The notes under the pieces: generated by a model
The model's input: the letters and a program-made list of their open reading frames with translations, nothing else
Told to the model about the DNA's origin: nothing
Database searches by the model: none
Translations under genes and position numbers: made by a program
In this document: piece by piece, positions 1-13,585 of the stretch
Layout: every line of letters begins with the position of its first letter
Numbering within the stretch: the first letter of the stretch is position 1
NCBI GenBank assembly: GCA_017553505.1
Contig: JAFZLD010000006.1
Span: 62,001-126,000, forward strand
DNA length: 64,000 bases
Source: Lachnospiraceae bacterium
GTDB lineage: Bacteria; Bacillota; Clostridia; Lachnospirales; Lachnospiraceae
Reading direction: 5' to 3'

Positions 1-591
1 AAGTACTGCTGCCGCATCGTCGGGGTCAACGTTGGAGATGAACTTAGCTTCCATCTTGAAGTTGCCGGTTTTCTTGGCCCAGTTTTCAAGAGCAAGGTAC
101 ATAGCGCGGGGACCTAAGTCACTTCCGCCGATACCGATCTGAACTACTGTGGTGAATTTCTCGCCCTTAGCGTTGGCAATTGCGCCGCTGTGAACCTTCT
201 CGGCGAACTCAGCGATTTTCTTCTGCTCGCCTACGTAGAATTCTCTCTTGTCTACGCCGTCAGCCACAACCTTGTCACCAAGCATGCCTCTGGTAAGCTG
301 ATGAAGCACGAGTCTCTTCTCGCCTGTGTTGATAACCTCGCCGTTGTATAAAGCTTTGAACTTTTCGGTAAGCTCAGCTTCCCCCGCAAGTTCTTCGAGA
401 ACTTTTAATACATCCTCATCAACAGCCTTAGCCGCATAGTTAAAAGAAAGACCGCATGCCATGGGCACACTGTATTCCTTAACTCTCTTGGCTCCCGCCT
501 CACCGCTCATAGCGGCCTTAAGATTAACCTTACCGGTTGAAGCAAGCTTCTTGTAGCTTGCAAGAGTGTCTAAATTATTCCATGAAACCAT
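1..591 (-). CDS. pgi: glucose-6-phosphate isomerase, N-terminal part (cut by window edge)
   Basis: Interconverts glucose 6-phosphate and fructose 6-phosphate in cytosolic glycolysis/gluconeogenesis. The frame is open from an ATG at 591 to the left edge, giving 197 residues. The hallmark stretch GIGGSDLGPRAMYLALENWA of the sugar isomerase family lies near residue 140, and residues such as SFNYAAKAV and HQLTRGM also fit bacterial Pgi. A GGAGG ribosome-binding site about 7 bases upstream supports this start. The C-terminal half with the catalytic Glu, His and Lys lies outside the window. It is divergent from nothing nearby and probably monocistronic. Confidence 0.93.
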   Translation of the reverse strand, partial: MVSWNNLDTLASYKKLASTGKVNLKAAMSGEAGAKRVKEYSVPMACGLSFNYAAKAVDEDVLKVLEELAGEAELTEKFKALYNGEVINTGEKRLVLHQLTRGMLGDKVVADGVDKREFYVGEQKKIAEFAEKVHSGAIANAKGEKFTTVVQIGIGGSDLGPRAMYLALENWAKKTGNFKMEAKFISNVDPDDAAAVL

Positions 592-683
592 TATATTTCC
601 TCCATTAATTAATAATGTATTTCCGCAAATTTTCGTACGCCTTTATGATAATCGATTTGCTCTTTCTTTTCAAGAAGAAGCAA

Positions 684-1442
684 TTACAGCTCTATGTCAA
701 GCTCCACCGGGCAGTGATCGGAACCGTAAATTTCATTGTGAATCGACGCGCCCGTAATCTTATCCTTAATATCATCGGAGACAATAAAGTAGTCGATACG
801 CCAGCCTGCGTTCTTTTCACGCGCGTGGAAGCGGTAAGACCACCAAGAGTAAGCGTCCTTTAAATCGGGATAGAGATATCTGAAGGAATCCACATACCCG
901 CTCGCAAGAAGGTCGGTCATCTTGCCGCGCTCCTCATCGGTAAAGCCTGCGTTGCGACGGTTGGTCTTGGGATTCTTTAAGTCAATCTCCTGATGCGCCA
1001 CGTTAAGGTCGCCACAGAAAATCACCGGCTTCTTTTTCTTCAATCCATTAATATAGGCAAGGAAATCATCTTCCCACTTCATACGGTAGTCGAGGCGGCG
1101 AAGCTCGTCCTGAGAATTGGGCGTATAGCAGGTTATGAAAAAGAAATTGTCATACTCAAGCGTAATAACTCTGCCTTCGTGGTCGTGCTCGTCGACACCG
1201 ATGCCGTATGCGACGCTGATCGGCTCGTGCTTGGTAAAGATTGCGGTGCCGGAGTACCCTTTCTTTTCCGCGTAATTCCAGTAACCCTTGTAGCCTTCGG
1301 GAAGTTCTAAGTCTATCTGACCCTCCTGAAGCTTCGTCTCCTGCAGGCAAAAGAAGTCGGCCCCGGCCTCCTTAAAGAAATCCGTAAACCCCTTATCTAC
1401 GCAGGCGCGAAGGCCGTTTACGTTCCAAGATATCATTTTCAA
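684..1442 (-). CDS. xth: exodeoxyribonuclease III / AP endonuclease
   Basis: Cleaves DNA 5' of abasic sites and removes nucleotides 3' to 5' in base excision repair. The 252-residue protein shows the endonuclease/exonuclease/phosphatase fold: [10 protein letters not shown] at the N terminus (metal-binding Asn), LQETKLQ (metal Glu), GDLNVAH (catalytic Asp/Asn) and [14 protein letters not shown] at the C terminus (catalytic Asp-His). I take a TTG at 1442 as the start because GGAGG sits 8 bases upstream and it yields the family-typical [10 protein letters not shown]. An in-frame ATG at 1490 would add 16 residues with no family match. Length is normal for ExoA/XthA. Confidence 0.93.
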
Positions 1443-1520
1443 GGCAATTTCCTCCAAATATGTTCTTTTTTCGTAGTGATGTTTGGACATAATTATACCA
1501 TCACTTTAATGATTTTGTGC

Positions 1521-1526
1521 TATAAT
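1521..1526 (+). promoter_or_regulatory. -10 element for the TSCPD-murG pair
   Basis: A consensus TATAAT lies about 50 bases before the TSCPD gene in the divergent gap after exonuclease III. I see no good -35 hexamer at the expected distance, so only the -10 is called. Confidence 0.45.
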
Positions 1527-1574
1527 GTGAAACTGAAATTGTTAACCCGTTTAGTTTGAGAAAGAGGTATAGCT

Positions 1575-1826
1575 ATGCATTTTAAACCCAGTGGAATTTG
1601 TGCAATCGGAATAGATTTCGAAGTTGTAGACGATCGCGTATACGACGTTCGTTTCACCGGCGGATGCGACGGTAACCATAAAGGCCTTGCGGCATTGATA
1701 GAAGGTATGCCCGTTCAGGAAGCAATCGACAGACTTTCAGGCATCACCTGCGGTCCCCGCAGCACTTCCTGCCCCGACCAGCTTGCAAGAGCTTTACAAG
1801 AATATTCATCCAAGAAGGCAGTTTAA
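1575..1826 (+). CDS. TSCPD domain protein (TIGR03905-like)
   Basis: An 83-residue protein carrying the family signature GPRSTSCPDQLARAL near residue 60 and the N-terminal FTGGCDGNHKGLAALIEGM segment. The TSCPD domain also occurs at the C terminus of some vitamin B12-dependent ribonucleotide reductases, where its Cys residues may bind metal; the stand-alone Firmicute proteins have no firmly assigned function. Cysteines fall in GGCDGN, ITCGP and TSCPD. The stop codon shares one base with the murG start (TAATG), so the two are probably translationally coupled. Confidence 0.85.
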   Translation: MHFKPSGICAIGIDFEVVDDRVYDVRFTGGCDGNHKGLAALIEGMPVQEAIDRLSGITCGPRSTSCPDQLARALQEYSSKKAV

Positions 1827-2896
1827 TGAGTAAGAAAATTGTTTTGACGGGTGGCGGTACCGCGGGTCATGTTACCCCCAACATCGCGCTTATCCCCGAG
1901 CTTAAGAAAGCGGGATACGAGATAAGCTACATCGGTTCCAAGGACGGTATCGAGAAGCGCCTTATCGAAGACTACGACATTCCTTACTACGGAGTGTCCA
2001 CCGGTAAGTTCCGCAGATACTTCGACCTTAAGAACTTTACGGATCCCTTCAGAATCATTCACGGATTTGCGGAGGCCAAGTCAATCCTTAAGGAGATTCA
2101 GCCCGATATCGTATTTTCCAAGGGCGGTTTCGTGAGCGTTCCCATTGTAAGAGCGGCTCATGCACTTAAGATTCCCTGCATCATCCACGAATCCGACATC
2201 ACGCCGGGACTTGCCAATAAATTGTGCATTCCCACAGCCGTGAAGATATGCTGTAACTTCCCCGAGACCATGCACTATGTTCCCGCGGACAAGGGCGTTC
2301 TTACCGGCACCCCCATCAGAGAAGAGTTAACCGAAGGTGTTCGCAAGAAAGGCCTCGACCTTTGCGGATTCCACGAGTTTAAGCCTGTACTCCTTATAAT
2401 CGGCGGCAGCCAGGGCTCAAGACTTGTTAATGAATGTGTCCGTCAGAGCCTTCCCACACTTCTTAAGGATTTCCAGATTATCCACTTATGTGGTAAGGGC
2501 AACCTCGACGAAAGCCTTAATGACACCTTAGGCTACAAGCAGTTTGAATATTTAAAAGAAGATTTAAAAGATGCTTTTGCCGCATCCGACGTAGTAATTT
2601 CCCGCGCCGGTGCCAATGCCATCTGTGAGTTGCTGGCGCTCCATAAGCCCAACCTCTTAATTCCGCTTGATGCGGGCAGCCGAGGCGACCAGATATTGAA
2701 TGCAGATTCTTTTGCCGCTCAGGGATTCTCAATGGTCCTTGCGGAGAAAGACATGACTCCCGAGACACTTACATCGTCAGTTCAGGAGCTCTTCTGCAAC
2801 CGCCAGTCCTACATCGAGGCCATGACCAAGTCGGGCCAGATGCAACCGATTCTTACCATCGTAAGTCTCATAGAAAAGTACAAAAAAACAGAGTAA
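1826..2896 (+). CDS. murG: UDP-GlcNAc--lipid I GlcNAc transferase MurG
   Basis: Transfers GlcNAc from UDP-GlcNAc to undecaprenyl-pyrophosphoryl-MurNAc-pentapeptide to make lipid II at the inner face of the membrane. The 356-residue GT-B protein has the N-terminal glycine loop LTGGGTAGHVTPN, the lipid-acceptor HESDITPGLANK region, the second glycine loop LIIGGSQGS near residue 190, and the C-terminal UDP-binding SRAGANAICELLA motif near 255. Length is normal. It is coupled by a 1-base overlap to the TSCPD gene rather than sitting in a dcw cluster. An intrinsic terminator follows the stop. Confidence 0.95.
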   Translation: MSKKIVLTGGGTAGHVTPNIALIPELKKAGYEISYIGSKDGIEKRLIEDYDIPYYGVSTGKFRRYFDLKNFTDPFRIIHGFAEAKSILKEIQPDIVFSKGGFVSVPIVRAAHALKIPCIIHESDITPGLANKLCIPTAVKICCNFPETMHYVPADKGVLTGTPIREELTEGVRKKGLDLCGFHEFKPVLLIIGGSQGSRLVNECVRQSLPTLLKDFQIIHLCGKGNLDESLNDTLGYKQFEYLKEDLKDAFAASDVVISRAGANAICELLALHKPNLLIPLDAGSRGDQILNADSFAAQGFSMVLAEKDMTPETLTSSVQELFCNRQSYIEAMTKSGQMQPILTIVSLIEKYKKTE

Positions 2897-2903
2897 ATTT
2901 ACG

Positions 2904-2950
2904 AATCGCAAAATGATATGTGTAACAGCTGTCATTTTGCGATTTTGTTT
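2904..2950 (+). terminator. intrinsic terminator after murG
   Basis: Perfect 13-bp inverted repeat (AATCGCAAAATGA and its complement at 2932-2944) followed by a T-rich tail. The tail runs directly into the 26-bp block that begins the RiPP promoter at 2944. Confidence 0.8.
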
Positions 2951-2991
2951 CCATTTACTTTATTCACTTCCCACCGTATTTGGTGTACACT
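2944..2991 (+). promoter_or_regulatory. promoter P1 of the peptide locus with shared 26-bp upstream block
   Basis: Positions 2944-2969 are identical over 26 bp to 3520-3545. The 3' end of the block supplies a -35-like TTCACT (2963-2968), then 17 bp, then a -10-like TACACT (2986-2991). Both hexamers match the consensus poorly, as expected of an activator-dependent promoter. Inside the block TTTACTT and TTCACTT recur about one helical turn apart, so it may bind a regulator. The transcript would start about 25 bases before the GTG start of the first peptide. Confidence 0.65.
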
Positions 2992-3021
2992 TTATGTACA
3001 TCATAAAGAGGAGGTGAAATT

Positions 3022-3201
3022 GTGATTAAACTCAAAGATGTTATATGGGGTGAAGTTGATTTAATCGATGAATTCACTCTTTCGGAGGACGCAGACGACA
3101 CCGGATTAGATGCAGAAATAAACGGAGGCTATGGAAACTCTGTTACCATGTGTTGCGGCGGCATAGGTCGTGGCCTATTACAGATAGGATGTGGCAAATA
3201 A
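3022..3201 (+). CDS. RiPP-like precursor peptide 1 (59 aa)
   Basis: A short peptide that I do not recognise from a named family with certainty. It starts at GTG 3022 behind a very strong AGAGGAGGTG site. The N terminus (M)IKLKDVIWGEVDL is nearly identical to two following peptides and is followed by an acidic stretch rich in Asp/Glu, as in a leader peptide. The C-terminal third is a Gly-rich core beginning VTMCCGGIGRG and ending QIGCGK, with three Cys. Its position before a radical SAM/SPASM enzyme suggests it is the substrate of that enzyme. Clo7bot- or CLI_3235-type Cys-rich peptides are possible relatives; I could not test this. Confidence 0.75.
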   Translation: MIKLKDVIWGEVDLIDEFTLSEDADDTGLDAEINGGYGNSVTMCCGGIGRGLLQIGCGK

Positions 3202-3223
3202 ATTATAGAAAGGATTTTATACA

Positions 3224-3394
3224 ATGATTAAACTTAAAGACGTTTTATTTGGAGATGTTGATTTAACAGTTGATGACACAGACAAAGAGGAGCCTAAGTA
3301 CGAATACGATCCCAATATTGGTATTATCGTTGTTGCTATGTGCTGTGGGGGCGGACATCCCGTAGGTAACGACCCCAGCCCTTGGCGTCCTTAA
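3224..3394 (+). CDS. RiPP-like precursor peptide 2 (56 aa)
   Basis: Second copy, 22 bases after the first and co-transcribed with it. The leader MIKLKDVLFGDVDL is conserved, followed by an acidic linker. The core region starts VVAMCCGGGHPVG and ends in a Pro-rich SPWRP tail, with only the adjacent Cys-Cys pair. The ATG at 3224 has an AAAGGA site about 8 bases upstream, weaker than that of peptides 1 and 3. An intrinsic terminator follows at 3431, so peptides 1 and 2 form their own transcript. Confidence 0.75.
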   Translation: MIKLKDVLFGDVDLTVDDTDKEEPKYEYDPNIGIIVVAMCCGGGHPVGNDPSPWRP

Positions 3395-3430
3395 TTTTCT
3401 GACTATCATACCATAGGTACATAATTATGA

Positions 3431-3473
3431 AAAAGCACGAAGGAAGCTAATACTTCTATTCGTGCTTTTCTTT
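3431..3473 (+). terminator. intrinsic terminator after precursor 2
   Basis: Perfect 11-bp stem AAAAGCACGAA with its complement at 3459-3469, an inner GAAG/CTTC extension, and a CTTTT tail. It separates the peptide 1-2 transcript from promoter P2. Confidence 0.85.
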
Positions 3474-3519
3474 TAAGCATAAATTTCAAAAATATACGTT
3501 TTTACCATTTAATTGGGAG

Positions 3520-3567
3520 TTTGTTTCCATTTACTTTATTCACTTGCTTTTTGTCAAATAGTATAAT
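3520..3567 (+). promoter_or_regulatory. promoter P2 of the peptide locus with the same 26-bp block
   Basis: The exact 26-bp duplicate of 2944-2969 is followed by the same geometry: TTCACT (3539-3544), a 17-bp spacer, and here a consensus TATAAT (3562-3567). It drives precursor 3, the radical SAM enzyme and the M55-like gene. Downstream of the -35 the two promoters diverge, so the conservation is confined to the putative control block. Confidence 0.75.
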
Positions 3568-3600
3568 AGTAACTATCAAAGAGAAAGGAGGTGAATTGGG

Positions 3601-3783
3601 ATGATTAAGCTTAAAGACGTAGTCTGGGGTGAAGTTGAGTTAGTAGAAGAAGACGATACAAACGCCGGCGGTGGCAGCGTATCCGTTATGACTTGTTGTG
3701 GTTGGCCGCCTCCGGATGAAGGCCTTCGTTGTTGGATCAACATACCGATTCTTACTCCGTTTACTTGTGACAAAAGACGCTAG
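3601..3783 (+). CDS. RiPP-like precursor peptide 3 (60 aa)
   Basis: Third peptide of the set. ATG 3601 follows a strong AAAGGAGGTG. The leader MIKLKDVVWGEVELVEED matches peptides 1 and 2; a GGG stretch then precedes the core, which begins SVMTCCGWPPPDEG and ends FTCDKRR. Four Cys are present (an adjacent pair plus two single residues), and the core is longer and more hydrophobic than in peptides 1 and 2. It lies immediately upstream of the maturase, separated by a 9-bp-stem hairpin, and shares its promoter. Confidence 0.78.
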   Translation: MIKLKDVVWGEVELVEEDDTNAGGGSVSVMTCCGWPPPDEGLRCWINIPILTPFTCDKRR

Positions 3784-3811
3784 TCTTTACTATTGAGAAT
3801 TTTATTGGGGT

Positions 3812-3838
3812 GCGGACATGTATTTACCACGTGTCCGC
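3812..3838 (+). promoter_or_regulatory. hairpin between precursor 3 and the maturase gene
   Basis: GCGGACATG (3812-3820) pairs with CGTGTCCGC (3830-3838) as a 9-bp stem with one G-U pair and a 9-base loop. No T tract follows, so it is not a full terminator. The ATG at 3818-3820, the longest possible start of the maturase, is buried in the stem. A processing or partial-attenuation hairpin that keeps peptide expression above enzyme expression would fit. Confidence 0.6.
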
Positions 3839-5215
3839 GCCTTAACCATGAATGGGGTATTTTATTATATGAAACTTATCAAGCACATGTTTGTCCGAGA
3901 AATCGGAAACATCAACAATCAACATATCATTGCCAATACTTTGACCGCTTTTGTCGGAGTATTGTATGAAGAAGAAAAGAATATTGTCCTCAAGTGGACA
4001 AAGGAAGACAACATTATTCCCGTAACCGACAAGGAAAAGGCTCTCTATGACATTCTTTCCGAGAACAAATTCCTGGTCCATGACGATGTCGAAGAAGAGA
4101 AAACCGTAGCAGACATGCTTACTGCCGGCAGAAACACGCACCGTGAACTTGCCAAAGATACACGTCGAATTATCCTCGCTCTTACATATATGTGCAACTT
4201 TGCTTGTCCTTATTGCTTCGAAAAAGAAAACTGTGATGAGAAAAAGGGAAAGGTAATTACCAAAGAGCAAATAGATAAAGTATTCGACTTAAGCACTCAG
4301 AAGATAGAAAATATCGAGCTTTTTGGCGGAGAACCTCTTCTTCCCATCACCAAGGACATTGTATCCTATATATTTAAGAAAGCTCCTAACGAACATTACA
4401 GTGTGACCACCAACGGCTACTATCTCGATGAATTTATTCCGTTATTTAAGACCGTTCATGTCTTTCGCATTACCGTTACCCTTGACGGAAAGCGTGACAA
4501 TCACAACAAAACACGCAAGTTATGGAATGGCGACGGAACTTATGACAAGGTAATCGGTAACGTAGAAAAGGCCCTTGAAAGTGGTCTGCCTATCAGCATA
4601 AGAATGAATCTCACCGCCGAAAACAAGGACGAAGGTATATCTCTGCGCGAAGAGCTCAGAAATAAATATGCCGACTATTATGCAACCGGCAAGCTTACTT
4701 TTGACCTTCAAACAGTTTTTCAGCAGGACGAGGCCCAGAAGACACAAATTTACATGGATACTCTGTATAATTTCCCCAAGAACAGTAAGAATATTGTATC
4801 CAATAACCTGGCAATGCTCAGCACATATCCTCTGTTAAGAAATCTCATGACTCCTCACGATAACTTTATTCCCAAATACTGCCATTGCGATTCTGAGGAA
4901 AGACTTATGATTTATGACGCATATGGCGATATGTACTCCTGTCCTGTTGCACTTGGCAACAAGAACGCTGTTATCGGCACTTATTATCCCGAGTACACAA
5001 TAAAAAACGAAAGCATGTTAAACAGAAACATTGAGAGCGTTCCCGAATGTCGCGCGTGCATTTATAAGTTTATATGCGGCGGCGGTTGTGCCAACGAGAT
5101 TGTGGAAGAAGGAAAATCAATCTTAAGACCCAATTGCCATCATCTTAACATTCAAATCGACCATCTTATTGCATTCGCCAAGCGGGAGTTAGATAACCAA
5201 TGTCAACCTACATAA
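3818..5215 (+). CDS. radical SAM/SPASM peptide maturase
   Basis: Predicted to install a Cys-linked or other radical modification in the adjacent peptides. In the longest reading (465 aa) an N-terminal region of about 115 residues may recognise the leader. The radical SAM CxxxCxxC motif CNFACPYC follows at 126-133, then the glycine motif ELFGGEPLL, and a C-terminal SPASM region with YSCPVALG, CRACIYKFICGGGC and PNCHH that supplies auxiliary Fe-S ligands. The start is uncertain: ATG 3818 lies within a hairpin and has no AGGAG, while in-frame ATGs at 3848 and 3869 (MKLIKHMFVREIG) look more protein-like. I give the longest form but consider 3869 at least as likely. The CcpM-type maturases of Clostridia are the nearest family I can name from memory. 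Confidence 0.88.
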   Translation: MYLPRVRALTMNGVFYYMKLIKHMFVREIGNINNQHIIANTLTAFVGVLYEEEKNIVLKWTKEDNIIPVTDKEKALYDILSENKFLVHDDVEEEKTVADMLTAGRNTHRELAKDTRRIILALTYMCNFACPYCFEKENCDEKKGKVITKEQIDKVFDLSTQKIENIELFGGEPLLPITKDIVSYIFKKAPNEHYSVTTNGYYLDEFIPLFKTVHVFRITVTLDGKRDNHNKTRKLWNGDGTYDKVIGNVEKALESGLPISIRMNLTAENKDEGISLREELRNKYADYYATGKLTFDLQTVFQQDEAQKTQIYMDTLYNFPKNSKNIVSNNLAMLSTYPLLRNLMTPHDNFIPKYCHCDSEERLMIYDAYGDMYSCPVALGNKNAVIGTYYPEYTIKNESMLNRNIESVPECRACIYKFICGGGCANEIVEEGKSILRPNCHHLNIQIDHLIAFAKRELDNQCQPT

Positions 5216-6090
5216 TTTTAGCAGACCTCGAAGGTATCTTCGGAGTAACCGATTTATTCGATTCAGAGACTAACAGAAGCCTTCTTTTGGCTCAAATAAA
5301 ACGGACCATAGACTGTATCAAAAAAACAGAAGACTCAATTGTAAAAGTATGCCTCATCCATGATGACGGGAGAATGGATATAGAAAAAGATGTCCTCGAT
5401 CTCGGAGCCTGTTACTATGGAAGCGGTATTAAATCGCTTCTTAGTTTAGAATCCGCCGCCGACTACGCCATCCTGATAGGCTTTCACAGCAAAGCCGGCG
5501 GAGCGGGAGTCTTCCCACATTCTTTCAAGCTGGAAATAGAAAAAGTTTCGACGGATGACAAAGATGTCGGAGAAGTTTACATGTTCTCCAAGTTTTTTAA
5601 GCTCAGGGGCACCAAAGTAATCTTTGTTTCCGGAGAAGGCTTCTTTGACGATGAAATGGTATTTGAAGGAACCATAACTCACTACATTAACAATTCGGTC
5701 GACTATGAGGACTCCCTGTCGACAGCCCTTGAAGCTCCGGTCGAAAGCATAAAGAGTTTTGTTACCGACGATGAAGTACTCCTTTATCTTAACAATACCG
5801 ATTATTACAATCTCATAGACCACTCTTCCTACTCAAAGGAAAGAAAATGCTTTGTTTTTGAGTCTATACAGGATTTTTTTAAAAAAATAATTGAACTTGC
5901 CATAGAAATCAATAGGGCATCCGTCATCATCAGACGAACCAACTTAAATTTTGCCAAAGAAATAAGCCGTCTTATCAAATCCGGCCAGGCTGAAATGCCC
6001 GACATCGAACTCCTTAACAAAGATATTTTTCTTTTTAATGAGTTCGAGCGAGAGATGGTGATGAATCTACTTAAAACAGCTACCAAATAA
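5200..6090 (+). CDS. M55 (DppA-like) family protein in the RiPP locus
   Basis: A 296-residue protein whose N-terminal half resembles the M55 D-aminopeptidase DppA. It has ILADLEGIFGVTD (metal ligands Asp9 and Glu11 of the DMEG motif), IHDDGRM at 53-59 (counterpart of NDSHxxM), LIGFHSKAGGAGVFPHSF at 92-109 (GYHA motif, His96) and VGEVYMF (Glu125). Against DppA as I recall it, the third metal His is replaced by Asp56 and the nucleophilic Cys before HS by Pro106, so activity may be altered. The C-terminal 110 residues match nothing I know. It overlaps the maturase by 16 bases, so the two are coupled. A role in leader removal or peptide processing is inference only. Confidence 0.7.
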   Translation: MSTYIILADLEGIFGVTDLFDSETNRSLLLAQIKRTIDCIKKTEDSIVKVCLIHDDGRMDIEKDVLDLGACYYGSGIKSLLSLESAADYAILIGFHSKAGGAGVFPHSFKLEIEKVSTDDKDVGEVYMFSKFFKLRGTKVIFVSGEGFFDDEMVFEGTITHYINNSVDYEDSLSTALEAPVESIKSFVTDDEVLLYLNNTDYYNLIDHSSYSKERKCFVFESIQDFFKKIIELAIEINRASVIIRRTNLNFAKEISRLIKSGQAEMPDIELLNKDIFLFNEFEREMVMNLLKTATK

Positions 6091-6094
6091 ATTG

Positions 6095-6125
6095 GCGGGG
6101 CGACATCGGTCGCCCCGCTTTTTTA
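6095..6125. terminator. terminator between convergent M55-like and MutS-like genes
   Basis: GCGGGGCGAC and GTCGCCCCGC form a perfect 10-bp stem with a 4-base loop, then TTTTTT. It ends the peptide operon on the + strand and may also serve the convergent gene that stops at 6123. Confidence 0.9.
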
Positions 6126-7742
6126 TCCTTCCTGCAATATTTGTTCGTATAATTCTAATCCGAAGCTCGATAATTCGGGCTCGTGCCTGATCATTTTAAA
6201 TGTTCTGGTACCGTTCTCAAGACGCTCGGCGCTTAGGAAGACGGAGTCGGGGCTTTCGGCGCCACCGCATTCTTCGTACATGCGACGGGCGAAGGACATC
6301 AGGTGAGTTACCGTCATAACTTTGATGCCCGATTCCTTTAAGGCCTTAACGATGTCGTAGGCGATTGCGGAGCCTTCTTTTTCCGTAGTAGTCGCGAACG
6401 ATTCGTTGAGAAGAACCAGCGAGCCGGGAGTAACGTTCTCGACTATCTTGCCCATGCGCTTAAGTTCTTCGTCGAGCTTACCGCTGTTCATGGCGCTGTC
6501 TTCGCGGCGGGTGAAGTGGGTGAAGATGTTCTTGAAAAGCCCGCTCTTGAACTCTTCTGCAGCCACAAACATACCGCACTGCATCATAATCTGCGCCAAG
6601 CCCACACTTCTTAAGAACGTGGACTTACCGCCCTGATTGGCGCCGGTGATAACCGCGAGGGTCTTGCCGTCGAGGGTGTCGGTGTTGCCGACGGTGTCGC
6701 AATGCTGGCTCATGGCCATGGAGGCTTCCTTGAGGTTCTTAAATTCCAAGGTGGTAAAAGAACCTACCTCGGGGAAGCAATATCCTACGCGGAACCGTTT
6801 CATTTCGTTCTTGATATTGATCGCGCCGAAATAAAAGCCCGTTTCAAAGCGCAGTCTGTCGATAAAGCCACCGTATTCGTTGATGGTGTTCTTAAGACAG
6901 GTCATTACGAAGGACACAGATTCTTTTTCCAGTTTCTGAGCGTCTTCCTCGAGAGGCTGATTGCCTATAATCGGTATCGTGTATTTCTTAAGCCTGCTGA
7001 TCTGACTTCGAAGCTTGGCCATGATGCCGTATGGGTTTCTGTAAGCTTCAACCTTACACTTGAACTCATCAAGCTTAATGTCGGTGAACTTAAGGCCGTC
7101 GGCCACGCCCACGTCAATGACTATGGTCGGATTAATCTGCTCGTAATAACCACGCTTGACCTCTTTAATCTTCGTGTCGGCAAAGAAAGAAAGGTCGTCG
7201 AGCACCTGTCTCAGATTTTCTGCCTTATCTTCCGAAAACTCTTCATTGATTCTCTTGTTAAGTTCTGTCAGTCCACGCGATTTTAAGCCTTCCTCGTATT
7301 CCGCAAAGAGCTGCTTAATATCTTTCATTGCGTCGTATAAAAGCTTCAGAACCTCGATATCCGTGGTGAGTCCGCCGCCGGATTCTTTGGATTCGCTGCG
7401 CTTTTTGTTGCGCCCTTTCTTTTCCCACTCGGAGATGGTCTGCTGGCAGATTACGAAGAGCTTGACGATGAAGGTCTCGTGCTGCAGGCAGTCTTTCATG
7501 ATTTCGTGTCTGTAAGCGATTTCTTCTTCCGTAAGGGCAACAGCCATAACACGCTTAACTATCAGCGACAGGTTATCGTATTCGCGTTGCGCGTTATAGT
7601 TGGTTCCGAGGCCTAACACCGAGTCTTTTCTTGCTACGCGGAATAGTATGTCGAGCCCCAGGTCCTTCACTATCTCGTTCCAGTCAAGGTACGCTTCGGA
7701 GTCACTGTGGTTACGATTCTGATAAAGCAAATTTACATTCAT
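6123..7742 (-). CDS. MutS-like ATPase A (DNA mismatch repair MutS-related)
   Basis: A 539-residue protein with a C-terminal MutS ATPase domain and an N-terminal helical region resembling only the lever/clamp part. The Walker A motif is TGANQGGKST (367-375 region, canonical GPNMGGKST). The Walker B segment reads SLVLLNESFATT (441-452), with Asn446 where MutS has Asp before the Glu. The signature SAMNSGKLDEELKRM and a terminal VMTVTHL His switch are present. There are no mismatch-recognition domains (Phe-x-Glu), so it is not MutS or MutS2. It overlaps the next gene upstream by 4 bases (ATGA), with AAGGAGAG before its ATG. Likely a partner of ATPase B; function unknown. Confidence 0.82.
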   Translation of the reverse strand: MNVNLLYQNRNHSDSEAYLDWNEIVKDLGLDILFRVARKDSVLGLGTNYNAQREYDNLSLIVKRVMAVALTEEEIAYRHEIMKDCLQHETFIVKLFVICQQTISEWEKKGRNKKRSESKESGGGLTTDIEVLKLLYDAMKDIKQLFAEYEEGLKSRGLTELNKRINEEFSEDKAENLRQVLDDLSFFADTKIKEVKRGYYEQINPTIVIDVGVADGLKFTDIKLDEFKCKVEAYRNPYGIMAKLRSQISRLKKYTIPIIGNQPLEEDAQKLEKESVSFVMTCLKNTINEYGGFIDRLRFETGFYFGAINIKNEMKRFRVGYCFPEVGSFTTLEFKNLKEASMAMSQHCDTVGNTDTLDGKTLAVITGANQGGKSTFLRSVGLAQIMMQCGMFVAAEEFKSGLFKNIFTHFTRREDSAMNSGKLDEELKRMGKIVENVTPGSLVLLNESFATTTEKEGSAIAYDIVKALKESGIKVMTVTHLMSFARRMYEECGGAESPDSVFLSAERLENGTRTFKMIRHEPELSSFGLELYEQILQEG

Positions 7743-9229
7743 GCCAGTCTCTCCTTTATCTGCTCGTAAGTGAGCCCGTATTTGACCGTCAAAGCGTTGG
7801 TGCCCACGTATTCGCGCGCCGCTTTTCTGGCGATTTTAAAGGTTCTGTTGAGGTTCTCGTCAAGTTCGGCTGTAAGGCTTACAACAGCTCCGTCAGCCTC
7901 CGACAATTCATTTAAATGCGTAACATATGCACCCTTCGCGCCCTCACCGATAAGGTATTTGAGCACTTTCTCGCCCATCACGCAGGCGTCAAGGTGCGCC
8001 GCGGTGGTGAAAAGCTCGTTGATTACTATAAATGCGTTGTGCTCACGCTTCTCCATGATAGGCTTAAGTCGCTCCAGCTCATCCACAAGCTTTCCTCGGC
8101 CCGTAGCATTACTCTCTTCCACCGAGAAATGCGTAAGAAGCGTCCCGAAGAACGGAAGCGTCGCCTTGGTCGCGGGCACATCAAGCCCCATCTTGTAAAA
8201 GAACACGAGCTGCCCGAGACTTCTTGCAAAAGTAGTCTTACCGCCCTGGTTCGGACCGGTAACTACGAAGAAGCTCTCGCCTTCCTTCAGCTCAGCATCA
8301 TTGGGTACTACAACGTTCTCACTTTCACTATACGCGCATGCAAGTGCCAAATCGTAAAGTCCGTTTACCGAGAACTTGTCTCCATCGGTACGACCCGCTG
8401 TGAAGCGCAGCCCTTGCTTTTGCATACGTTCCATGAATCGGTAGTAAGCGGTATAATATGTCACTTCTTTCTTCAAAAGAAGAATCTCTTCGCGCACATA
8501 ATCCTTGGCATTAAGAAGAAACGCCTCGGCCCACTCAGCGAAGGCTTTGTTCTTCTTCATGAGCATCTTGGCGGTCTCATACTCGATGTCGGACGTCTCA
8601 ACACCGTTTAAATAGGGGTTCCTGAAGGTAGCGTCCTTGCAGTTAAAATGTTCCCCGAGAGCATCCTGATAAGTGCCCTTGCCGGAGCCTTCGGTTATCA
8701 CGAATTTGTCCCGAGTGTATGTAATCTTAACCCTGAAGCCCACGAGCTCGTCGTAGAGAGCGTAGACCGTTTCTTTGTAGCTCTTATACTCTTCCGTGCC
8801 CGTATACTCATCAATGAAGGCCATAAGCCGCTTCATTCCTTCGGACTCAAAGCCCATGGGAGGAAGTTTTTCTTTTAACAACTCTACCGCAGCGAGGTAC
8901 GCGTGAACTTCTCTTATGTACCACACACACTGCTGGAGGCTTATGTCGAACTTCTCTTTCTTTTCCTTGCAGTCGGCCCACTCGTCAAGAATGTCCTGAA
9001 AACACGAAAAGATTTCTGCCACACCTTCTTTCTTGATGTCGGCAAAAATCTCCCTGCGATATTCCGCCTCCTCGGCATCGGCAGGGAAAAGATCGTAAAG
9101 TTTCTTTACATCATCCCCCAGTCCCGCCGTTACGAGCCGGATTATTCTGTCGATGTTTAAGTCCGAAATAAGCGCATAAGGCACCTTCACGGACAGCTTT
9201 TCATCGTCTTTGACCAATATGCTGAACAT
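7739..9229 (-). CDS. MutS-like ATPase B (partner of A)
   Basis: A 496-residue homologue of ATPase A encoded just upstream. Walker A is VTGPNQGGKTT (323-333). Walker B is AFIVINELFTT (399-409), again with Asn instead of Asp. The signature NATGRGKLVDELERL and the AYVTHLNEL His motif are present. The N-terminal 300 residues are mostly helical with no recognisable DNA-mismatch domain. The two proteins are diverged paralogues with matched substitutions, suggesting a heterodimer that handles DNA or another substrate. Start ATG 9229 is preceded by GGGGG at 5 bases. The pair probably shares a promoter with, or follows, the small membrane gene upstream. Confidence 0.82.
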   Translation of the reverse strand: MFSILVKDDEKLSVKVPYALISDLNIDRIIRLVTAGLGDDVKKLYDLFPADAEEAEYRREIFADIKKEGVAEIFSCFQDILDEWADCKEKKEKFDISLQQCVWYIREVHAYLAAVELLKEKLPPMGFESEGMKRLMAFIDEYTGTEEYKSYKETVYALYDELVGFRVKITYTRDKFVITEGSGKGTYQDALGEHFNCKDATFRNPYLNGVETSDIEYETAKMLMKKNKAFAEWAEAFLLNAKDYVREEILLLKKEVTYYTAYYRFMERMQKQGLRFTAGRTDGDKFSVNGLYDLALACAYSESENVVVPNDAELKEGESFFVVTGPNQGGKTTFARSLGQLVFFYKMGLDVPATKATLPFFGTLLTHFSVEESNATGRGKLVDELERLKPIMEKREHNAFIVINELFTTAAHLDACVMGEKVLKYLIGEGAKGAYVTHLNELSEADGAVVSLTAELDENLNRTFKIARKAAREYVGTNALTVKYGLTYEQIKERLA

Positions 9230-9259
9230 TGTAACCCCCTTGTTATTATCCCCGTCGTA

Positions 9260-9625
9260 TTATTTATCAAGTCCGTCCATTATCTCTTCCGCAATCCTAT
9301 ACCAGTGCTGCGTGGTATTTTCAAGGAAGAAATAATGCAGGACGTAAAAGAACAAAACCACCAAAATCACAAGCGACACCGCAAATGCCACAATCGTCTT
9401 AAGCGCCACAAACGCCAGATACAGCGCAAACAGCTCGCATATCGCGGTCAGCAAAAGAACAATAAGATGTATCAGTCTCTCGTGTTGTAACCACCTAAGC
9501 TTCTCCAGGTGCCTGTCCAAAAGTTTCTGCGAAGCTCCCTTCTCCGCAAGCTCCTTCCTGACAGCCTCTTCGTGCTCTGCACAAAACTTACGCATTTTGA
9601 TTCCGTACTTGTCTTTATTATTCAT
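9260..9625 (-). CDS. small membrane protein, unknown function
   Basis: 121 residues. A charged, helical N terminus of about 50 residues (MRKFCAEHEEAVRKELAEKG) is followed by two adjacent hydrophobic segments, roughly 53-73 and 79-99, and a short polar tail ending EEIMDGLDK. AGAGGGA lies 5 bases before the ATG. It is the first gene of a minus-strand run with the two MutS-like ATPases (30-base gap), so a functional link is possible. I do not recognise the family. Confidence 0.7.
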   Translation of the reverse strand: MNNKDKYGIKMRKFCAEHEEAVRKELAEKGASQKLLDRHLEKLRWLQHERLIHLIVLLLTAICELFALYLAFVALKTIVAFAVSLVILVVLFFYVLHYFFLENTTQHWYRIAEEIMDGLDK

Positions 9626-9801
9626 AGTGTTCCCTCTTTACCGTCACTATATATTATTGTGAATATTCGACAGTATATTTGTCAATCCATATATAACAAT
9701 ATTAATAATTGTTAAGAACTCGATAATTCGTTTCTGATAGTATGATACTGCCTATACTTTCCGTTTGAAAAGGATTTCGAATTTGTCAAGGAGGAACAAG
9801 C

Positions 9802-10437
9802 ATGGTAGGTATAAACGGTTATTCAAAAGGTAACAACAACTTAGACGCCGTACATACCGACAACGCCAAGCGTGCAGGAGGCGTAAAGGCAAAAAACGGC
9901 GAAGGCAAACTCTCTAAGAAAGCGGCAGATTTTCTTGCTAAGTTAAGAGAAGAAAGACCCGACTTCGACTTTCAGGTTGCAAGCGGTAAGGACTTAAGAG
10001 CTCTTGCCACCGATACCGACAAAGAGTATTCGGTAATCTTTGATGCAGAAGAACTCGAGAAAATGGCTGATGACGAGAATTATGCCAAAGAAAAACTCGG
10101 CCACTTAGACACGATCGTGGAGATGTCCGACAAGATTACCAAGGACACAGGCTTCGCATCGCTTTTGGGTGAAAACGCAACAGGCAATTTCTATGCCGAC
10201 CTAATCAGCTTCTCTGTTAAGGATAGCGGAGAGATAACGATTTTCGCGGATATTAAGAAAGCTGCCGAAGAAAAGGCTGAACAAACAAAAGCCACAGATA
10301 CAGAAAAACCCGAGAAGAAATCCTTAAACGAACGTGACGTACGTGAAAAAGCTGAAGCAGAGAAGCCTTTCAAGCCTATTAAAGTTGAGGCTCTTTCAGT
10401 GGAAGATTTCCTTGCAAAGCTTCGTAACATCGCTTAA
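9802..10437 (+). CDS. hypothetical protein, possibly DUF6033-like
   Basis: 211 residues with no signal peptide or membrane segment. The start MVGINGYSKGNN behind AAGGAGG is followed by a globular middle (about 35-155: KKAADFLAKLREERPDFDF, FADLI-type segments) and a low-complexity Lys/Glu/Ala linker (about 155-190), then a short amphipathic end VEDFLAKLRNIA that echoes the FLAKLREE helix near residue 44. I suspect the Lachnospiraceae DUF6033 family from overall shape but could not verify it. Monocistronic, with its own terminator. Confidence 0.6.
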   Translation: MVGINGYSKGNNNLDAVHTDNAKRAGGVKAKNGEGKLSKKAADFLAKLREERPDFDFQVASGKDLRALATDTDKEYSVIFDAEELEKMADDENYAKEKLGHLDTIVEMSDKITKDTGFASLLGENATGNFYADLISFSVKDSGEITIFADIKKAAEEKAEQTKATDTEKPEKKSLNERDVREKAEAEKPFKPIKVEALSVEDFLAKLRNIA

Positions 10438-12330: not shown

Positions 12331-13585
12331 TCATTTCAATTCTTACATTCATACAGCCGTCTTTGTATATCCATTCACAGCTTCCGTCATACTTCTCGAC
12401 CGTCTCACGAATCTTACCTATTCCAAGCCCATGACCCGGTTGTTTCTTGTCCGAAACCAGGTTGGCGTCGCTTTGCGCGGCTGAATTTCTCATATCGATA
12501 AAGACATGATTCTTGTAGTGTGATATCTCCAGATCAAACTGCTTCCTTCCGCTCACCTTGTTAAAAGCTTCCGCCACATTATCTGTAAGATTGGACATTA
12601 AGATACTCATGTCAACGTAGTCAATCGGCATATTATCGGGAAATCTTCCCACCGCGGTATATTCAAAAGTCTCGTCGTTTTTAAACTCCTGAATCAGCTT
12701 GTTGACAAAAATATCAGCCACTCTGTTGTTGGTATTAACGTATTTGATGAAGTCGTACTTGCCGTAAATACCGTCTATATAATCAGCTACGGCTGTGTCG
12801 CCGCTTTCTTTGGCCAGATTGCCTATCATCAGAAGATGGTTCTTAAAATCGTGCCTGAAGCTTCGAAGCTCTCCCTCGCTCTCGAGGAGAAAGTCCACAT
12901 GACGACGGTTTAACTCGATTATTCTGTTCTGGTACTCGTTGCGCTCCTGCATGAGCGTCAGTTTGTTACGCTGATACATGCTCCAGACAGAAACCAATAT
13001 GAACATCGCCGCTATGATGACGCTTAAGAATCCCGCATACAGAAGCAACCGGTTATCAGGCTGTTCCGTAAAAAGAAACTGCATTATTCCCACCCACAAA
13101 AAGGCCATGAGCGAGATTATCGGAATGCTTAGGTTAATCTTTACATCATCCCTAAAAATCATCTCATGTATTTCTTTGCGATGATTTCTTACGCAAAATG
13201 CCAGCAATGCAAGAACGGGTATCGACACTGCATCTCTCCATCCGTACCCCGTGGCCGGCGGACAGTTCATAAATATCAGTATGTTGTTAATGGTGAGGTC
13301 AATAACCGCAACTACGCTGATTGAAAGCATCGAAATCGATACTTTGATACCGATTCGCCCGGCAAAAAACACAACCGGGAAAAGAATAAACCATATAAGC
13401 TTATATACGCTCAGCATGTCTCCCCTATAAGACACCACAATCGGCATTATAACCAACGGGAAAAGAAAGACTAAATGCGCGTAAAGTTTCTTAAACGGCT
13501 GAAAGCCCAATATAAAGCGAAAAATGATATAGATTTTTAAAGACTCAATGATGCCCCATGCATAAATCATGAGAAGGCCCTTCAT
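12317..13585 (-). CDS. GHKL-type sensor histidine kinase (AgrC/VirS-like)
   Basis: 422 residues. Six to seven hydrophobic segments fill the first about 210 residues, with no extracellular domain; a coiled segment (MQERNEYQNRIIELNRRHV) leads to the phospho-acceptor region SFRHDFKNHLLMIGNL (His near 244) and a GHKL ATP-binding domain with an N-box SNLTDNVAEA and GLGIGKIRETVEKY. This architecture is typical of peptide-sensing kinases paired with LytTR regulators. It overlaps the stop of the upstream response-regulator gene by one base and ends the operon. Confidence 0.88.
   Translation of the reverse strand: MKGLLMIYAWGIIESLKIYIIFRFILGFQPFKKLYAHLVFLFPLVIMPIVVSYRGDMLSVYKLIWFILFPVVFFAGRIGIKVSISMLSISVVAVIDLTINNILIFMNCPPATGYGWRDAVSIPVLALLAFCVRNHRKEIHEMIFRDDVKINLSIPIISLMAFLWVGIMQFLFTEQPDNRLLLYAGFLSVIIAAMFILVSVWSMYQRNKLTLMQERNEYQNRIIELNRRHVDFLLESEGELRSFRHDFKNHLLMIGNLAKESGDTAVADYIDGIYGKYDFIKYVNTNNRVADIFVNKLIQEFKNDETFEYTAVGRFPDNMPIDYVDMSILMSNLTDNVAEAFNKVSGRKQFDLEISHYKNHVFIDMRNSAAQSDANLVSDKKQPGHGLGIGKIRETVEKYDGSCEWIYKDGCMNVRIEMISEA

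Follow-up and report, generated by a model that had tools for sequence, protein, structure and literature searches.

The 64,000-nucleotide stretch of DNA analysed here (the window; Lachnospiraceae bacterium, assembly GCA_017553505.1, contig JAFZLD010000006.1, positions 62,001 to 126,000) contains a compact locus with genes for three short peptides, a radical SAM/SPASM enzyme and an M55-like protein (Table 1). The locus very probably belongs to the radical SAM/SPASM class of ribosomally synthesised and post-translationally modified peptides (RiPPs), and its predicted peptide product is best read as an uncharacterised cysteine RiPP. It is likely controlled in trans by a pheromone, through an RRNPP-like quorum-sensing pair encoded on another contig of the same genome (C14); we put the probability of this at about 0.65-0.7. 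A wider proposal is more tentative, at somewhat below even odds in our judgement. It holds that the regulator represents an undescribed receptor class of Lachnospiraceae, a single-chain tandem of RRNPP-like modules that would bind a palindrome as an internal dimer. Such receptors would be dedicated to RiPP pathways (radical SAM and YcaO) and respond to signals that partly share GDE(D/N)xG(Y/T/S), one of them acting in trans on a new RiPP class with a re-purposed M55 protein as its second enzyme.

All three precursors begin with M-I-K-L-K-D-V-[ILV]-[WF]-G-[ED]-V-[DE]-L in the list of open reading frames (ORFs), continue through acidic middles and enter the core at TMCCGG (precursor 1), AMCCGG (precursor 2) or MTCCGW (precursor 3). 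Aligned with the three counterparts from Lachnospiraceae bacterium YSD2013, the six precursors show 14 invariant columns, including M1, K3-V7, G10, V12, L14 and C44-C45-G46. The shared leader and CCG core onset that a first-pass annotation of this DNA had pointed out are thus confirmed by ORFs and alignment alike. Precursor genes with a conserved leader and a variable core adjoin a maturase gene, the arrangement by which a RiPP locus is recognised. None of the three precursors matches a family in Pfam and none in NCBIfam; membership of a known family was rejected on these grounds.

The maturase has a Pfam Radical_SAM match (1.1e-21). Its cysteine motifs CNFACPYC and CRAC-N5-C-N3-C, which we take to be the radical SAM CxxxCxxC motif and the SPASM cysteines, are found in both copies (own genome and YSD2013). 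The longest ORF starts at 3818 (465 aa), and the start common to both copies is the one in Table 1. The enzyme scores under the cut-off of every one of the 25 NCBIfam families listed, the best being PapB (NF047865) with 122.6 bits against 340, and its nearest solved structure by sequence is 5wgg, presumably the SCIFF maturase CteB. The likeness to PapB-type ranthipeptide maturases and 5wgg lies in the radical SAM and SPASM cysteines and in these best matches, whereas the low score and the lack of a family match for the precursors set the locus apart. The compact radical SAM/SPASM RiPP locus of the first-pass annotation is supported; a sactipeptide or ranthipeptide product finds no support in the NCBIfam scores. 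A search of 397 genomes of the family at E<=1e-25 gave further radical SAM proteins at 6 places, spread over 4 genomes, with 29-31% identity to the maturase. One genome (G079) holds three related radical SAM/SPASM genes (L050, L054, L055; 29-31% to the maturase), one of which precedes an ORF that resembles, by eye, a clostripain-type protease.

Evidence for regulation comes from the promoters. Both precursor promoters read GTTTCCATTTA-N5-TTCACT-N17 followed by a -10-like hexamer, and the same box-N5-TTCACT-N17 spacing recurs, with TACAAT as the hexamer, in front of a 62-aa peptide gene on contig C14. A 23-base form, GTTTCCATTTACTTTATTCACTT, is found at 2947-2969 (precursor 1) and 3523-3545 (precursor 3), with 2 matches in the window and 0 in shuffled sequences; for the 11-base core, 2 were observed in the window against 0.04 expected. 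A RiPP promoter in another genome (G047) has a comparable layout, box-N6-TTCACT-N17-TATAAT. The placement of the box would fit an activator that touches the -35 region, in a promoter comparison that took the best -35/-10 pair over several offsets. The content of the locus had been described correctly in the first-pass annotation, which had overlooked the boxes at its two promoters as well as the distant genes for pheromone and regulator.

When the 22-base box TTTCCATTTACTTTATTCACTT is searched on both strands of the own genome (3.1 Mb) with up to 3 mismatches, three places are found and all are exact: two in the locus and one at C14:133128, upstream of the 62-aa peptide gene. Backward-read controls gave 0 and 1. 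At up to 2 mismatches the box is present in 3 of the 18 genomes of the genus, the same three that have a full-length regulator. A 16-base form (GTTTCCATTTASTTTA, up to 1 mismatch) gives 22 matches in 7 of these 18 genomes, and all 12 exact matches lie in the three regulator-bearing ones (own genome 5, YSD2013 6, G402 1; 0 in the other 15). The five exact sites in the own genome are two at the locus, one at the pheromone gene, one at C14:94345 (reversed) and one at C5:45283. That the box is merely a local repeat was rejected, because the pheromone gene has a copy too and the core is found in other genera.

The 62-aa ORF has a hydrophobic N-terminal part of secreted type and is convergent with the gene of a 630-aa protein. 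Some 4 kb further on C14 there is another such pair, paralogous to the first, and its peptide repeats GDEDVGYSAE and GDEDVGYAAE; YSD2013 carries both C14-type pairs and G402 one. Pfam places HTH_3 above its cut-off in two stretches of all six regulators scanned, and an alignment of one half of the regulator with the other spans 223 columns (the helix-turn-helix, HTH, plus a helical part) at E 2.6e-20. With a profile of the N-terminal half, PlcR is matched at 0.001 and Lmo0325 at 0.0065, and neither match extends beyond the HTH region. For the C-terminal half the best solved match is an HTH protein (0.028), ahead of a weak but nearly full-length match to PlcR (0.17, profile positions 10-293 of 300). 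The regulator is provisionally best described as a tandem PlcR-like receptor with two HTH-TPR-like modules and a weak kinship to PlcR; the tandem form itself is what separates it from PlcR/PapR.

Eleven full-length regulators of 627-637 aa were seen (two each on own C14 and in YSD2013, one each in G402, own contig C22, G290, G156, G047, G666 and G681). In 11 of 11 cases a small ORF of 43-71 aa with a hydrophobic N-terminal stretch converges on the regulator gene; these ORFs were chosen by eye and judged by hydropathy, without a signal-peptide program. The stretch GDE(D/N)xG(Y/T/S) occurs in 5 of the 11 peptides. Full-length relatives of the regulator at E<=1e-40 occur in 4 of 299 family genomes, the own one included (3 more have weak N-terminal matches), and in 4 of 392 order genomes, with the own genome and G290 in both sets.

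The six regulator loci outside the C14 type all adjoin RiPP enzymes by Pfam, namely radical SAM proteins (own C22, G290, G156, G047, G681) or a YcaO protein (G666). In G047 a 46-base stretch with the palindrome CTAAATGGAAAC-N6-GTTTCCATTTAG is repeated before the pheromone-like ORF and before the RiPP operon. The box was tested in fixed 400-base upstream intervals with a 12-base query taken from the window. The test covered 12 promoters of pheromone or RiPP genes, none of them from this locus or the discovery site, and 62 control intervals in the same loci. A box-like match at p<0.05 was obtained for 7 of the 12 promoters (Fisher 2.5e-11) and for 7 of the 62 controls. These p-values are flattering, since several of the sites were already known to carry the motif when the query was chosen. 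The controls that pass include two regulator genes (the first copy on own C14, and G681), an MFS-like gene sharing the intergenic space of the G681 regulator, a G047 MFS-like gene with the exact core on both strands and a carboxylase-like gene; two have no visible link. The promoters that miss are the second pheromone of own C14 (0.077), the pheromone (0.36) and RiPP promoter (0.0505) of own C22, the G666 RiPP promoter (1.0) and the G681 pheromone (0.48). The G666 RiPP palindrome sits just beyond the 400 bases.

Several observations weigh against control by the pheromone pair. Pair and RiPP locus lie on different contigs, no RiPP enzyme was recognised by eye in the 14-16 kb around the five C14-type regulators, and G402 has pair and box without the precursors. 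In the box test 5 of 12 promoters fail at p<0.05 while 7 of 62 controls pass, and the 12-base core was itself fixed after several sites were already known. No box is found in the fixed interval of the G666 RiPP promoter (5 mismatches), the G681 pheromone (3) or the own C22 pheromone (3); in G290 the pheromone match falls within the ORF before it, while the RiPP box points away from its operon. Four genomes lacking the regulator contain five one-mismatch copies of the 16-base form (backward control 4), and the own genome has exact copies at C5 and, reversed, at C14:94345 beyond those at the locus and pheromone gene, plus one with a single mismatch on C16. Of the 18 sites listed, 7 have TTCACT without a mismatch, and it does not appear at G156, G290, own C5 or the second C14 pheromone. 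Finally, only one of the six regulators scanned has a TPR match above the Pfam cut-off, with weak matches in others.

The separation of pair and locus would also suit a rival account, in which an ordinary cysteine RiPP of the ranthipeptide or sactipeptide type is expressed constitutively or under some other control. The box would then serve an unrelated regulator, and the gene of the C14 peptide would merely be co-regulated. The best NCBIfam match (the PapB ranthipeptide maturase) and the nearest solved relative (5wgg, taken as CteB) agree with it. We nevertheless consider it unlikely: regulators of this kind adjoin RiPP genes at independent loci, mostly with a related box in nearby intergenic space, and regulator and box have identical distributions in the genus. 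It is also improbable, in our view, that control is exerted by the C22 paralogue or by the second C14 copy instead of by the regulator beside the 62-aa peptide. All three are in the own genome and box-like sites lie near each, but the exact 22-base box occurs only at the promoter of the 62-aa peptide, the other two pheromone promoters having 2 and 3 mismatches in the 12-base core; moreover, YSD2013 has both C14-type copies and no C22-type match at E<=1e-30. In agreement with the earlier statement that the locus lacks an exporter, no transporter was seen among the neighbouring ORFs (Pfam and by eye), whereas MFS- or ABC-type ORFs, also read by eye, are present at all six regulator loci linked to RiPPs. 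This could mean that the CCG peptides are never exported and act as signals or stay bound to the cell. Yet the cores vary against a constant leader, a pattern typical of diversifying secreted RiPPs, and we hold this alternative to be very unlikely.

A further question concerns the M55-like protein, for which the first-pass annotation had proposed a part in leader removal or tailoring. The Pfam match to Peptidase_M55 (PF04951; 2.2e-11, 44.1 bits against a gathering cut-off of 25) covers profile positions 5-162 of 264, and the N-terminal half finds the DppA structure 1hi9 at E 0.067. In contrast, NCBIfam DppA (NF058634) is not reached (29.4 bits against 430), and residues past 152 have no Pfam match. 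If the DppA zinc ligands are D8, E10, H60, H104 and E133, as we assume, four positions are kept as D9, E11, H96 and E125, and a four-sequence alignment puts Asp56 of both copies at the supposed H60, where the pairwise alignment with DppA has a gap. A structure prediction from a two-row alignment reached a mean predicted local distance difference test (pLDDT) score of 47. A role as leader peptidase of the RiPP draws on the four retained ligands, on the 16-base overlap with the maturase gene (this ORF ends at 5215 and the next starts at 5200, as had been reported) and on its retention in the sole other copy found. The position without histidine and the lack of a Pfam match over the second half of the protein count against such a role, and a review of RiPP leader proteases (PMC10885120) mentions M55 0 times in its main text. 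Leader removal by this protein seems doubtful. Since the M55-like gene is coupled to the maturase gene, our best guess is instead that the protein may act on the modified peptide. Searches of plasmids and viral contigs for the M55-like protein gave 0 matches. Among the 397 family genomes there were three at E<=0.001: the own copy and M55 genes in G105 and G284, where no radical SAM gene was recognised by eye within 1.5 kb on each side (ORFs of at least 70 aa). In the literature we found nothing holding radical SAM, RiPP, M55 and peptidase together, nor radical SAM, RiPP and D-aminopeptidase, an absence that is weak as preprints and most subscription journals were outside the scope of both searches.

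Taken as pheromone control in trans, the system could work as follows. The 62-aa gene on C14 would yield a propeptide with a hydrophobic leader that is exported, trimmed and re-imported. The peptide would bind the adjacent 630-aa regulator, of which the homologous halves are observed, and the regulator would then bind GTTTCCATTTA-type boxes abutting the -35 of the pheromone promoter, P1 and P3, where box and spacing are observed. Two transcripts would follow, one with precursors 1-2 and ended by a hairpin, the other with precursor 3 and the radical SAM and M55-like genes; the hairpin before the maturase may keep the enzyme level below that of the peptides. Judging from family and anatomy, the radical SAM/SPASM enzyme would modify the CCG cores, guided by the MIKLKDVxWGEVDL-type leader, and the modified peptide might then, or at the same time, be a target of the M55-like protein. 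Export would go through a general or distant transporter, as none is present at the locus.

The closest described parallel is streptococcal Rgg/SHP, in which a short hydrophobic peptide and an RRNPP-family regulator govern radical SAM RaS-RiPP operons (streptide, tryglysin, streptosactin), according to PMC12445099 and PMC13361665. The proposed system shares with it a short hydrophobic peptide and an RRNPP-like regulator over radical SAM RiPP genes. It differs in its receptor of about 630 aa with two homologous halves, in a signal gene that converges on the regulator, in the location of the pair on another contig than the RiPP genes and in its Lachnospiraceae host, a family name with 0 occurrences in the main texts of both papers. 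The signature used by RRNPP_detector, as given in PMC10075063, demands receptors of 250-500 aa; the present regulators fall outside this range, although all 11 have the adjacent small propeptide gene and the six scanned with Pfam have the HTH. RRNPP, Rgg and PlcR have 0 occurrences in a paper on rumen quorum sensing (PMC7035670). No literature joining RRNPP and Lachnospiraceae was found, again a weak absence with preprints and most subscription journals outside the scope.

To our knowledge, many RiPP loci of gut and rumen anaerobes are without a known product. If a secreted peptide and a recognisable box switch such loci on, the inducer could be predicted from the genome, added as synthetic peptide and the product read out. 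If the proposal is true, quorum control of RiPPs would reach beyond streptococci into Lachnospiraceae, by way of a type of receptor too long for the length filter of RRNPP_detector, and the M55-like protein would gain a testable substrate.

Table 1. Coordinates of the features of the locus in the window
Feature	Position	Strand	Description
Hairpin between MurG-type gene and locus	2903..2945	+	z -4.4 against shuffles (2890-2950)
Promoter P1	2947..2991	+	box GTTTCCATTTACTTTA 2947-2962; -35-like TTCACT 2963-2968; 17-base spacer; -10-like TACACT 2986-2991
Precursor peptide 1	3022..3201	+	59 aa; GTG start; core MCCGGIGRG...GCGK
Precursor peptide 2	3224..3394	+	56 aa; core MCCGGGHPVGNDPSPWRP
Hairpin then T-rich sequence, 3' of precursor 2	3431..3469	+	-20.5 kcal/mol (91-nt stretch); z -3.5
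Promoter P3	3523..3567	+	same box as P1 3523-3538; TTCACT 3539-3544; 17-base spacer; TATAAT 3562-3567
Precursor peptide 3	3601..3783	+	60 aa; core MTCCGWPPP...CDKRR
17-bp hairpin between precursor 3 and enzyme genes	3805..3845	+	z -4.8 (3784-3868)
Radical SAM/SPASM enzyme	3869..5215	+	448 aa; CNFACPYC at residue 109, CRACIYKFICGGGC at 394
M55-like protein	5200..6090	+	296 aa; Pfam M55 over residues 6-152
Terminator-like hairpin at operon end	6094..6119	+	terminator scan and folding

The layout of promoters and hairpins suggests two transcripts, one for precursors 1-2 and one for precursor 3, the maturase and the M55-like gene. Among the hairpins after precursor 2, before the maturase and after the M55-like gene, only that at 6094 is listed by the terminator scan. 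YSD2013 also has a strong predicted hairpin between precursor 3 and the maturase, with different stem letters. Rfam gave 0 matches at the gathering score over 1500-7000. By Pfam, the neighbours of the locus include a TSCPD protein and a MurG-type glycosyltransferase; other neighbouring ORFs resemble, by eye, an exonuclease (one ORF) and MutS (two ORFs).

Some observations concern the other regulator loci and boxes. On own C22 (L075:6320-17919) a third regulator, 45% identical, has its own small peptide and is followed by a 331-aa ORF without a Pfam match, two radical SAM genes flanking a PqqD-like gene, and ORFs resembling one more radical SAM protein and a pair of ABC transporters; this is likely a second pheromone-controlled RiPP locus. 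In G666 (C22; L088, 3648-6157) a YcaO gene accompanies a 52-aa Ala/Gly-rich precursor-like ORF (5566-5724), and a palindromic box lies between these two and the tandem regulator. The exact reversed 16-base box at C14:94345 (L090:6351) precedes a Cys-rich precursor-like ORF, a radical SAM gene and ABC-type genes (6430-9943), with a resembling box at the same place in YSD2013 (L030); this locus was excluded from the main claim because it was chosen for holding the box. The box on own C5 (L113) lies upstream of a 476-aa ORF without a Pfam match, and its YSD2013 counterpart (L114:5050-11631, contig C37) upstream of a different gene, for a 2193-aa RHS-repeat protein with 18 matched stretches. Were this regulon real, it would join RiPPs with a contact-type competition protein. 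Two box-like inverted pairs with one mismatch per core (L059:7464-7490 and 12378-12402) lie upstream of the first C14 regulator and of a carboxylase-subunit-like ORF, and both are retained in YSD2013 (L065).

A scan of named genomes, which detects close relatives only, found YSD2013 (L009; G410) as the sole relative, with a maturase 75% identical. Its three precursors, maturase and M55-like gene have the same order and the same overlap, so this only other copy keeps both the peptides and the M55-like gene, in line with the first-pass annotation. A precursor profile built from the six own and YSD2013 copies recovered, at E<=1, the own three (4e-27 to 1e-18) and otherwise YSD2013 only in the 18 genus genomes, 12 of which lie outside the 90%-complete, 5%-contaminated class. 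Across the 397 family genomes 12 others matched at E 0.013-0.1; in the 7 of these 12 stretches that were inspected (ORFs with CC or above 120 aa), no CCG precursor stood beside a radical SAM gene. Compared with YSD2013 per 150-base bin, the left flank (window 1-3000) is 93-100% identical and the right flanks differ. The stretch from maturase to M55-like gene is 60-79% identical, but identity reaches 97% in the bin 3301-3450, where precursor 2 has its second half. This mosaic divergence over 3001-6150 suggests recombination or allelic exchange within the cassette.

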